A stretch of DNA of 37,192 bases, taken from the NCBI GenBank assembly GCA_001801885.1, contig MGYU01000100.1:1-37192 (forward strand). The letters are read 5' to 3'. This document shows, piece by piece, positions 1 through 22,666 of the stretch. The notes under the pieces are model-generated. The model was not told where the DNA came from. It worked only from the letters and a program-made list of their open reading frames with translations, and made no database searches. This stretch comes from Gammaproteobacteria bacterium RIFCSPLOWO2_12_47_11 (GTDB lineage Bacteria; Pseudomonadota; Gammaproteobacteria; Eutrophobiales; Eutrophobiaceae). The first letter of the stretch is position 1. Every line of letters begins with the position of its first letter. Both the position numbers and the translations under genes were made by a program.

Positions 1-2604
1 GTCAGCGGCGGCTTCGGCAGTGACACCTTCAATTTCAATACATCAACCTTCGTTTCCGGCGGAGTGTCCGGCGATTCAGCTACTGATGTGTTCAATGTGG
101 ATTTCGATGTCACGGCCAACCTGTTTGGCGGCAGTGGTGACGACACGTTCAATCTGAATGCGAACCTCTCCGGCGATATCGACGCCGGTTCCGGGGACGA
201 TACCGTCAACTTCAATGCGAGCTTGGTGTCCGGCAACGTGTTCGGCAACGTCGGCGATGACACCTTCAATTTCAGTACGACGGTCAATATCACGGATGAT
301 GTCACCGGCGGCACGGGGGATGATACGTTTAACATCTTTAGTAATGTCACGGCCAGCCTGTTCGGCGAAGATGGCAACGATACGTTCAATTTCAATGCTA
401 ACGTATCCGGCGTGGTAGATGGTAATACCGGCAATGATACCTTCAATTTCAATACATCAGTGGCCGTCACCGGAGATGTCTTCGGCAGTGACGGCAATGA
501 TGTTTTCAATGTGTCCTTCGATGTCACTGCGGACCTGATCGGTGGTAGTGCTGATGACACGTTCAATCTGAACGCAAATGTATTTGGCGATGTATTTGGC
601 AATGCCGGCATCGATACGTTTATATTGGATGGGTCTGGCAACGTCACTGGCACGACCGGGATCGATGGCGGGTTGGGCAATGACTTTTTATTCGGGAATA
701 ACTCCACCAATACCTGGAACATCACGGCGCTGAATAAAGGCAATCTGGTGGACGGGAACGGGACAAATCAATTTGTGAACATCGAGAACCTGACCGGTGG
801 GACAACCAATGATACGTTTATCTTTACCGGCGCAGCCGGCGGTGTAGCAGGGACTGTGAATGGTGGGGTCGGGGGCGGCACCAATACACTGGATTATTCG
901 GCTATAGCCGGTCCCGTGTCAGTGGTATTGAATGCAACGGACACGGTCGGTTTCCAGGGCACGGCGACGAGGACCGGCGGTATCAGAAATATCAACAACC
1001 TGCTGGGTAGTCCGGGCAATGATAGCCTGAGTGGCACCACAGCAGCAGGCACATGGAATCTAACGGCAACCGGCGGTACCTATACCAGTGGTAATTCCTT
1101 TACTTTTTCTACTATCGAAAATGTCAATTCACGCGGAACAGATACACTCTCCGGCGGCACGTTTGCCGGTAACATTGGTATCAGTGGGGATGCCACATGG
1201 ACTTTTGTAAACGGTACACCAATCAGTAATTCAATTACGGGTGATGGCACGTTAACCATACCCAACGGCGGTGCGGTCGTTGTCGGCCCGGGAGGCCTGA
1301 TATTGCCTGACATGGCTGCCCCTGTTCCGGGAGGGTTCACCGGTCATCTGATTATCGGTGGGGCGATTACGGATCCGACACCTACTCCCGACTCTATGGC
1401 TGATGCAGACGTGATTGTTGTTAACGCTACGAGTTTGACCGTGAATAGCGCCATTATCACAGGCGGGAATCTGACGATACTCGCAGGTGATATCTTCCTG
1501 AATAATAATATTACTGCGGGTGCTGCCGGACCGGCGGGTAAGGAACTGGTTTTGTTTGCCGTGCCGGATACCCCTGATACTACGGATGGTAATATCACTG
1601 GCGTAGTCCCCGTTACACTTGCGGCAAAAAACGCCGTGTTTATTGCGGAAGGCAATGTAGTCAATCCGAATAATATATTACTGAATTTTGCCGGTGGTTC
1701 GATTGAGGTCGCCACCGGAGCGGGAACACCGTTGTCTTTCGCTCCAGGATCAACTGCTTCGAGCCCAGGCGGCCAGACACCAACATTTAATAATATTATT
1801 GGAAACCTGCTGGCTGCAGGTGCAGGCGGTATCAATTTTCAAACAGCCATAATTGTAATTCCCAATCCGGCAGCTGACCTGGCAGGTCTGGAAGAACTGG
1901 GCTTTATCGATACCGGTCTGTTCGAACAGGAACTGACGCTGTTTGGTATTATCGGCTATGGTATTGCGCTGGCACTGGCACAGTGCGAAGAAGTTGAAGG
2001 TTGCGCCCCGAACGTTACGGAAGAAGAATTAAATGAACTGATAGTCCAACTGGAAGCACGGATTGCAGAACTGGAGAAACGTTGTGATGGTGGTGATGCT
2101 GAGGCCTGTGCCTTGGTTGAAGGATACAACGAAGAACTTGGCAAGTTCATGGCCTATCGTGAAGAGCTCCAGCAATATCTTACTGCCGGTGCAGAAGAAG
2201 AACTGGGTGATGAATTCACTGACGAGTTTGGTGGGGAAGAGCCGGCAACAGGTGCACAGGCAAGTATTAATGTTCTCGTCAGGATGCTGGAGTCGGTCAA
2301 GGCAAGGATCCAGTGGCTTGAGGGCCTCCTGACCAATCCGGAAGAGCGTGCACGCCTCGGCGCCATTACCGGTATAGAGCTGACCCTGGAAGCCTTGAAC
2401 GAGATAATCGAAGGCGCCAAGGTCCAATCGCAATTCATTGAACGGCAGATTAAACTGTTACAGGAAGGTACGCAGGCACAACAGGTAGTCCCGCCGGTAT
2501 TTACCGCTGAAGCCGCAGATTACAGCAGAATACAGACTGTGGTTTATGGTCCGTCACTTCTCGATCTGAACCAGAAATTAACGATGAATGGGAACTGGAA
2601 CTGA
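1..2604 (+). CDS. Large secreted beta-roll / filamentous-hemagglutinin-like repeat protein, 5'-partial (continues off the window edge)
   Basis: Reading frame is open from base 1 (VSGGFGSDTFNFNTS...). About ten 19-21 aa repeats of type G(S/N)xG(D/N)DTFN(F/L)NxxVxxxVF. Then FHA-like beta-strand text (AGDIFLNNNITAGAAG) and a helical, acidic C-terminal region with Cys residues. Confidence 0.8.
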   Translation, partial: VSGGFGSDTFNFNTSTFVSGGVSGDSATDVFNVDFDVTANLFGGSGDDTFNLNANLSGDIDAGSGDDTVNFNASLVSGNVFGNVGDDTFNFSTTVNITDDVTGGTGDDTFNIFSNVTASLFGEDGNDTFNFNANVSGVVDGNTGNDTFNFNTSVAVTGDVFGSDGNDVFNVSFDVTADLIGGSADDTFNLNANVFGDVFGNAGIDTFILDGSGNVTGTTGIDGGLGNDFLFGNNSTNTWNITALNKGNLVDGNGTNQFVNIENLTGGTTNDTFIFTGAAGGVAGTVNGGVGGGTNTLDYSAIAGPVSVVLNATDTVGFQGTATRTGGIRNINNLLGSPGNDSLSGTTAAGTWNLTATGGTYTSGNSFTFSTIENVNSRGTDTLSGGTFAGNIGISGDATWTFVNGTPISNSITGDGTLTIPNGGAVVVGPGGLILPDMAAPVPGGFTGHLIIGGAITDPTPTPDSMADADVIVVNATSLTVNSAIITGGNLTILAGDIFLNNNITAGAAGPAGKELVLFAVPDTPDTTDGNITGVVPVTLAAKNAVFIAEGNVVNPNNILLNFAGGSIEVATGAGTPLSFAPGSTASSPGGQTPTFNNIIGNLLAAGAGGINFQTAIIVIPNPAADLAGLEELGFIDTGLFEQELTLFGIIGYGIALALAQCEEVEGCAPNVTEEELNELIVQLEARIAELEKRCDGGDAEACALVEGYNEELGKFMAYREELQQYLTAGAEEELGDEFTDEFGGEEPATGAQASINVLVRMLESVKARIQWLEGLLTNPEERARLGAITGIELTLEALNEIIEGAKVQSQFIERQIKLLQEGTQAQQVVPPVFTAEAADYSRIQTVVYGPSLLDLNQKLTMNGNWN
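1921..2200 (+). other. C-terminal 'IGYGIALALAQCE' module (copy 1)
   Basis: FGIIGYGIALALAQCEEVEGCAPNVTEEELNELIVQLEARIAELEKRC resembles FKSIGMGIALSLAQCEGQDQCQVIDADEIEQLLGALDIRINNLILR in the next gene. Confidence 0.7.
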
Positions 2605-3272
2605 TGTCCCGTATTAAGCAACTTCTGAACAAGTCTCTATTCCGTCATGCTGGCGAATGCCAGCATCCAGTAAACAATGGTTTTTACTGGATTACGTTCA
2701 TCACTTTAATTGCGTGGCTACTGGTGATAAACACACCATTCGTTTTTGCCGCTACCGGCAGGATACTCGAAGGCATAGAGGCCGAACAGGCCGATAAAAA
2801 AGCGTTGGTTGCAGAAGCGAATATTTTCAAATCCATTGGCATGGGCATTGCGCTTTCACTGGCACAATGTGAAGGCCAGGATCAATGCCAGGTAATAGAT
2901 GCCGATGAAATAGAACAATTACTAGGTGCATTGGATATACGGATTAATAATCTTATATTACGCCAGGGTGGAGGTGAAGGAGAGTATACGGAAGTGCTCA
3001 CTGTATATATTGATCAGCGTGAAAAATATTTGAAGTATCAGGACAAACTGGAAGAAATAATCGGAACAGAAGCAGCAGTAGATGAAACAGCGCAAGACGC
3101 TCCTGAAACACAGGCATTTGGCACGGATGAACAGGAAGGAGGGGTTGATTTAAGTATCTTCGAGGATGTTGAGGTTGAGGAAGACCTCGGTGGTGATGCA
3201 GGCCCCGGTGCTGATGAAATTCCCAGTGGTGAAACGTTTGAAGATGAATATAGTCCGGAAGATATTCAGTAA
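2604..3272 (+). CDS. Small secreted protein containing the same IGxGIALxLAQCE module plus an acidic tail; signal-peptide-like N-terminus
   Basis: 222 aa ORF; its ATG overlaps the upstream TGA (TGATG). Hydrophobic stretch WITFITLIAWLLVINTPFVFA. Module similarity to the end of the preceding CDS. Confidence 0.75.
   Translation: MSRIKQLLNKSLFRHAGECQHPVNNGFYWITFITLIAWLLVINTPFVFAATGRILEGIEAEQADKKALVAEANIFKSIGMGIALSLAQCEGQDQCQVIDADEIEQLLGALDIRINNLILRQGGGEGEYTEVLTVYIDQREKYLKYQDKLEEIIGTEAAVDETAQDAPETQAFGTDEQEGGVDLSIFEDVEVEEDLGGDAGPGADEIPSGETFEDEYSPEDIQ
2647..2704 (+). repeat. Palindromic repeat inside the 5' coding region (copy A)
   Basis: ATGCTGGC-GAAT-GCCAGCAT hairpin (2647-2666), then CCAGTAAA...TTTACTGG (2667-2690). 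The part atccagtaaacaatggtttttactggatt...tcatca recurs imperfectly at 3264-3304. Confidence 0.65.
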
Positions 3273-3304
3273 ACAAATGGTATAACTGGATTCCCGCTCA
3301 TCAA
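3264..3304 (+). repeat. Second half-copy of the same repeat at the stop codon (copy B)
   Basis: attcagtaaacaaatggtataactggattcccgctcatca versus atccagtaaacaatggtttttactggattacgttcatca. Confidence 0.6.
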
Positions 3305-3310
3305 TTACCC

Positions 3311-3358
3311 GCCGCTCCTGCGCATCCATGCGCTCGCGGCATACCGTACATCCTGTAC
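3311..3358. repeat. Double hairpin intergenic element
   Basis: Nested GCCGC..GCGCAT-CC-ATGCGC..GCGGC (3311-3340), then GTACA-TCC-TGTAC (3346-3358). Confidence 0.6.
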
Positions 3359-3393
3359 ATAATCACCAATTGCTATTCACTAATCACTGTCAG

Positions 3394-21858: not shown

Positions 21859-22666
21859 ATGAAACCTTTTCTGAAATGGCCCGGCGGGAAATACCGGCAG
21901 GTTGGCCGTATCTGCAAACAACTCGGTGATGGCAACAGACTGGTAGAACCATTTGCAGGATCAGCTGCATTGTTCCTGAATACTGATTTTAAATATTATC
22001 AGCTGGCCGACAGCAATTCTGATCTGATCAATCTGTACCAGCAACTTCAGTCAGAAGGTGAATCATTTATTCAATATTGCCAGAAGTTTTTCAACACAAG
22101 AAATAACAACAAGGATGTGTATTATGAATATCGATCCAGATTCAACCGGACCGATAACTTGCGGCTTAAATCTGCATTGTTCCTATACCTGAATCGTCAC
22201 GGTTACAACGGCCTGTGCCGTTATAATTCAAAAGGTGATTTCAATGTTCCATTTGGCCGTTACGGACGGCCCTATTTTCCATACCGGGAAATGCATTTTT
22301 TTATCAAAAATCCTGCTATGCAAGATTCATCCATGCTTTTTTTCAGGAACCATGCGCCAGATTAAAAAAGGAGATGTGGTATATTGCGATCCACCATACG
22401 CGCCATTGAGCAATACCGCTTATTTTACCGGCTACGCCAGCGGTGGTTTCAATTGGGAACAACAGATAGAACTGGCGGAATGGGCCCGGAAACTATCAGG
22501 CCAGGGAATAAAAGTCGTGATTTCCAACCACAACATAAAATCGATCACAGACTTGTATAAAAATGGTGGTGCGGCCATGGAACAGTTCAAGGTAACCCGC
22601 ACGATCAGTTGTCTGGCAAATAATCGTGTTAAAGTAGGCGAATTGCTGGCAGTTTTTCAACCATAA
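21859..22666 (+). pseudogene. dam: DNA adenine methylase (Dam), split by a +1-type frame change at a T7 tract
   Basis: ORF 21859-22365 (MKPFLKWPGGKYRQVGRI, FNVPFGRYGRPYFP) and ORF 22235-22666 (DVVYCDPPYAPLSNTAYFTGYASGGFNWEQQIELAEWAR...VISNHN) are the two halves of one Dam protein. Removing one T from TTTTTTT (22337-22343) gives ...MLFSGTMRQIKKGDVVYCDPPYAPL.... Confidence 0.9.

Follow-up and report, generated by a model that had tools for sequence, protein, structure and literature searches.

A conserved C-terminal module and its exported paralog in a two-partner secretion operon: a possible additional partner in retaining giant proteins at the cell surface

Introduction

Only a few cases—HMW1, HxuA, CdrA, and FhaB—show how very large two-partner exoproteins are held on the cell, and whether this attachment is regulated. 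In HMW1 and HxuA, a disulfide-bearing C-terminal domain is kept in the periplasm and locks the protein in its TpsB (PMC5422565; PMC8151025). For CdrA, the tether to its TpsB is a C-terminal cysteine hook (PMC7616799), and release of the protein is regulated (PMC5422565); in FhaB, the C-terminal prodomain is degraded stepwise by the proteases DegP and CtpA (PMC8263021). Small helper proteins are also found among type V systems: SadB and TpgA are small periplasmic helpers of trimeric autotransporters (PMC8151025).

Here we describe a locus at the start of a 37,192-nucleotide contig of Gammaproteobacteria bacterium RIFCSPLOWO2_12_47_11 (MGYU01000100.1, forward strand); we refer to this whole stretch of analysed DNA as the window. 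The locus holds the end of a giant TpsA gene, followed by a gene for a small exported protein that is a paralog of the giant's C-terminal module. The pair has long been kept together in a two-partner secretion operon, and it appears to represent an as yet undescribed additional partner that may keep such giant proteins attached to the cell surface. The combination of a conserved module and its free paralog within one operon, present in uncultured Gammaproteobacteria and in cultured Marinospirillum, Natronospirillum, and Hylemonella, makes a specific retention mechanism testable; it also provides a new protein family with two defined roles to annotate.

When compared by their described features, HMW1 and HxuA of Haemophilus resemble this locus in having a close cysteine pair at the TpsA C-terminus, here C-x5-C. 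The locus differs from both in having a helical module of ~100 residues, further helices, and a free exported paralog next door; the module itself has neither a curated family match (Pfam, NCBIfam) nor a PDB relative. The likeness to CdrA of Pseudomonas, drawn in the same way, is that of a TpsA with a C-terminal cysteine feature; in contrast to the CdrA/LapG system, the linked genes here encode a kinase, a phosphatase, and a nucleotide cyclase. A LapG-type protease (PF06035) is missing from the window's own genome and from 16 of the 19 other carrier genomes—with 17 of 20 lacking it, LapG-controlled release is unlikely as a rule.

FhaB of Bordetella is likewise a large TpsA, with a C-terminal region that is processed in the periplasm (PMC8263021); the module described here is, however, short, with a C-x5-C loop and a free paralog, and the sources mention no free paralog of the FhaB prodomain. 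The small gene itself recalls BcpO, SadB, and TpgA, helpers encoded beside a type V secreted protein and often exported or membrane-associated (PMC5422565; PMC8151025). These are described as separate helpers, whereas the small protein is a paralog of the cargo C-terminus, a relationship reported there for none of them.

The Giant Exoprotein and Its Operon

The 3' part of the giant, repeat-rich TpsA-type gene occupies positions 1 to 2604 on the forward strand; the contig begins inside the gene, and the frame is open to the contig start. Its domains and its neighbours identify the giant as a TpsA exoprotein of two-partner secretion (type Vb). The giant ORFs of relatives run from 4,500 to more than 13,500 residues with a TPS domain at the N-terminus, and the TPS domain PF05860, present in relatives, is also found on the 5' part in the window's own genome (E 4.2e-31). 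The original prediction had raised the prospect of an exporter encoded upstream, and one is present: a TpsB gene, with a ShlB barrel (PF03865) and a POTRA_2 domain (PF08479), lies directly upstream in the own and related genomes, and its position upstream of the giant is evident from coordinates in Marinospirillum perlucidum, Natronospirillum, and Hylemonella.

In the window's own genome, the single ShlB/TpsB gene is located on another contig, C91, after a PPIase gene; next comes a TPS-domain ORF truncated by the end of the contig (L073:7151-9625). Since there is a single TpsB gene and the gene order is conserved, we infer that one tpsA gene has been split by an assembly gap, with its 5' part on C91 and its 3' part on the window contig; the two contigs share no long exact overlap.

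The gene order in the own and related genomes is parvulin PPIase, TpsB, giant TpsA, small paralog, and usually SapC (PF07277), which comes after the small gene in 13 loci read from the own family and is non-adjacent in G009 and G000. The SapC-family gene of the window's own genome lies on a separate contig, C79 (L074:305-1075), beside Sel1-like and leuC/leuD-like genes; such genes also adjoin SapC downstream of the small gene in relatives. On the other side of the operon, genes for a Ser/Thr kinase, a PP2C phosphatase, and a nucleotide cyclase-FHA protein diverge from PPIase-TpsB-TpsA (L073:1-3408), and the kinase of relatives carries Pkinase and FGE-sulfatase domains. In Marinospirillum, Natronospirillum, and Hylemonella, the orthologous cyclase-FHA, PP2C, and kinase genes come after the small gene in the same direction—orthologous cassettes adjoin the operon in both arrangements, divergent from the PPIase gene or downstream of the small gene. 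A search of mostly freely accessible literature found no paper describing the cassette.

The Shared Module

The small gene (2604–3272, forward strand) encodes 222 residues comprising a signal-peptide-like N-terminus, a helix, a C-x5-C pair, a hairpin, and an acidic tail with an FxD motif. As the original prediction stated, its start overlaps the giant's stop; the two ORFs share 1 nt in the sequence TGATG (2602–2606, forward strand), a geometry typical of translational coupling. The proposed similarity of the two proteins is also significant by each measure applied. The giant's last ~250 residues align with the small protein at 33% identity over 116 aa (BLASTP, E 6e-12); the Smith-Waterman score of the two segments is 145, against a mean of 38.6 and a maximum of 65 in 1000 shuffles; and profile-profile comparison of the giant-module and small-protein families by hhalign gives 99.3% over 113 columns (E 1.1e-20). 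The giant C-terminus and the small protein are the only two copies of the module in the window's own genome.

The module had been put forward as undescribed, and the library searches agree. No Pfam, NCBIfam, or PHROGs model matches either the giant module or the small protein, and searches of PDB sequences and PDB folds returned nothing beyond weak coiled-coil-like matches, such as Tsi2 (E 0.006); identity with a known domain was rejected on these results, the profile searches having given no identifying match to an unrelated one.

The common unit is made up of a D-x-G-L-F-E-x-x-L-x-L-F-G-x-I-G-x-G-I-A-L-x-L-A-Q-C helix, a C-x5-C loop, and a two-helix hairpin. In the giant it spans 1909 to 2271 on the forward strand, as delimited by invariant alignment columns, similarity to the small protein, and predicted helices; the end of the hairpin, at about 2271, is the limit of giant/small similarity. 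The cysteine codons lie at 1984–1986 and 2002–2004 in the giant and at 2868–2870 and 2886–2888 in the small gene. A C-x(5-6)-C pair had been predicted: the pair is present in both proteins, and the spacing is C-x5-C in both and invariant in the aligned sequences. Residues D24, F28, E29, L32, L34, G36, G39, G41, E50, G54, P57, L64, L92, Y106, and both cysteines are invariant in 28 aligned giants; in 29 aligned small proteins the invariant positions are both cysteines, one glutamate, and one tail phenylalanine. The C-x5-C pair provides the sole cysteines past the signal region in 28 of the 29 small proteins.

The two proteins differ in what follows. The giant continues into a second helical segment (2254–2463, forward strand) without counterpart in the small protein, marked by conserved A3 columns (R156, L160, L163, I190, and E201) and by predicted helices at residues 139–164 and 183–208 of the 254-residue segment. 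The small protein instead has an acidic tail with a conserved FxD...L motif, which the giant lacks. A strongly acidic tail had been proposed for both proteins; this describes the C-terminus of the small protein, whereas the acidic stretch of the giant is an internal linker before the second helical segment.

Structure predictions, built on shallow alignments (10 rows), give the small protein a signal helix, a three-helix core (residues 65–163, pLDDT mostly 80–97), and a disordered acidic tail. The AlphaFold model of the giant segment has low confidence (mean pLDDT 57.5), with helices at positions matching those of the small protein, so the case for a shared structure rests on sequence. By eye, the N-terminus of the small protein is signal-peptide-like and has no lipobox; the protein is therefore likely to be periplasmic and to meet the giant C-terminus there. 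The length of its n-region is unusual because a dispersed palindromic repeat (2643–2670, forward strand) sits within it. This repeat has 17 sites in the window's own genome at ≤3 mismatches, compared to 0 for a reversed control, and leaves the frame of the small gene intact.

Conservation and Evolution of the Pair

The giant C-terminal segment is matched in 31 of 193 related genomes; 26 of the 31 belong to the window's own family, and 25 of these 26 also have the small gene. Both genes lie in one stretch at 28 loci, a count that includes those of Marinospirillum (3), Natronospirillum, and Hylemonella. At each of these loci the giant is immediately succeeded by the small gene in the same orientation, with −11 to +12 nt between the giant stop and the small gene's start (start codons were picked by hand, and single values may shift). 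Whether the pair always co-occurs had been posed as a check; the coupling holds at every locus with both genes, but the giant module is also found on its own, in G021 of the own family and, outside it, in G060, G148, G184, G264, G268, G296, and G366, with some of these cases near contig ends. Among the genomes compared, no small gene was found in any where the giant could be excluded; in G020 and G050, which carry the small gene, the giant sequence is interrupted by a contig end or transposase-like ORFs. These patterns make the small gene dependent on the giant, with no dependence in the other direction.

Two loci have further features. In G050, the transposase-like ORFs lie directly upstream of the small gene (L070:8776-10133), and the signal peptide and upstream giant sequence are lost. 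G411 has the pair plus a second small gene; this second paralog is of the Marinospirillum type and is found on a different contig, C188 (L088, L101).

In a class-wide sample of 369 genomes, the giant model matched 16 genomes and the small model 12, with several of the small-model matches being to the giant only; in a phylum-wide sample of 399 genomes, there was no match beyond the window's own. In a tree that compares 38 giant modules with 32 small ones, each kind falls on its own side of one branch with 99/99 support, and groupings within the giant side and within the small side partly match (the tree was built from 122 columns, and its inner forks are often unresolved). As read from this tree, the pair is the product of one old duplication in which both copies were kept without sequence exchange, since giant and small copies never intermix; the 99/99 split rules out a recent tandem duplication or gene conversion.

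Proposed Mechanism and Alternatives

The original prediction had left the pair's role open among secretion, anchoring, and co-assembly; its interpretation is partly supported, and our analysis favours a role in anchoring or retention within a two-partner system. We assign a probability of about 0.5 to a joint explanation: a periplasmic disulfide-loop anchor formed by the giant's module, and a small protein dedicated to pairing with it as a third partner. The giant chain would be exported via Sec, aided by the operon's parvulin PPIase, and would then move through TpsB with its N-terminus leading. The module, once oxidised and looped, would be unable to pass, and would remain in the periplasm or the barrel mouth, holding the giant on the surface; such an anchor would be membrane-proximal and consist of a glycine-rich hydrophobic helix, the disulfide-closed C-x5-C loop, and the helical hairpin. 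The small protein, a Sec-exported free copy of the module made from a translationally coupled gene, would stay periplasmic and most likely pair with the giant module via the same helix and hairpin surface. By capping, locking, or chaperoning the giant, it could help to retain the chain or shield the C-terminus from periplasmic proteases. Control of the system probably lies with the adjacent cyclase-FHA protein, PP2C phosphatase, and Ser/Thr kinase.

The cases of HMW1, HxuA, and CdrA suggest the anchor role by analogy, and an invariant C-x5-C close to the end of the giant fits it. As a paralog of the putative anchor that is coupled to it in translation, the small protein is most readily seen as a binding partner; it cannot be essential to the module everywhere, since several lineages have the giant module and no small gene.

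A different and rather unlikely account is that the giant C-terminus is an FhaB-like periplasmic prodomain, with the small protein blocking or competing for the processing protease and no anchor complex being formed. The stepwise removal of the FhaB prodomain by DegP and CtpA is a precedent (PMC8263021), and the conserved FxD...L tail may be an end that a tail-reading protease could recognise; however, the giant does not carry this tail motif, the conserved cassette contains no protease gene, and a LapG-type protease is present in just 3 of 20 carrier genomes.

We also give a low probability to the small protein being a secretion chaperone that binds the unfolded giant chain or the POTRA domains of TpsB during export, with no anchoring role. 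The parvulin PPIase and TpsB genes in the operon would suit such a function, as would coupled translation, which suggests matched amounts, and the known small periplasmic helpers SadB and TpgA of trimeric autotransporters (PMC8151025). A generic chaperone, however, need not be a paralog of the last domain of its cargo, and several lineages have, and presumably export, the giant module in the absence of the small protein.

It is very improbable that the small gene is an orphan C-terminal cassette for recombination (cf. orphan cdiA-CT) or encodes immunity to a toxic C-terminus: its position directly downstream of a TpsA gene is that seen in CDI loci (PMC5422565) and the hairpin has weak profile similarity to the immunity protein Tsi2 (E 0.006), but the giant C-terminus is conserved and not polymorphic, the separation of the two copies in the tree (99/99) argues against sequence exchange, and the small protein, unlike CDI immunity proteins, is a homolog of the supposed toxin that carries a start and a signal peptide of its own. 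A CDI toxin-immunity system was rejected on the grounds of this conserved C-terminus and a neighbour that is a paralog with a signal peptide.

The anchor-and-partner reading can be extended, tentatively, to a distinct two-partner class. The anchor of such systems would have been duplicated to yield a periplasmic third partner that holds giant adhesins in place or lets them go, under kinase/PP2C/cyclase-FHA control.

Local Genome Context

Downstream of the small gene, positions 3273–3393 of the window connect the TPS operon with a nuo operon whose last gene is nuoH (the nuo genes were named by eye), and NuoI is found at the start of another contig (C26:96-461). This junction contains a dispersed repeat (3302–3366, strand not assigned) between the small gene and the truncated nuo operon; with 94% identity over 65 nt, the repeat recurs at L074:289-352, just upstream of the SapC gene on C79. 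A repeat-mediated rearrangement or an assembly join accounts for the junction; the giant-small pair, conserved elsewhere, is unaffected by it. Further along the window, at 21859–22666, a DNA adenine methylase-like gene appears, by eye, to be split over two overlapping frames through a frameshift or a sequencing error.
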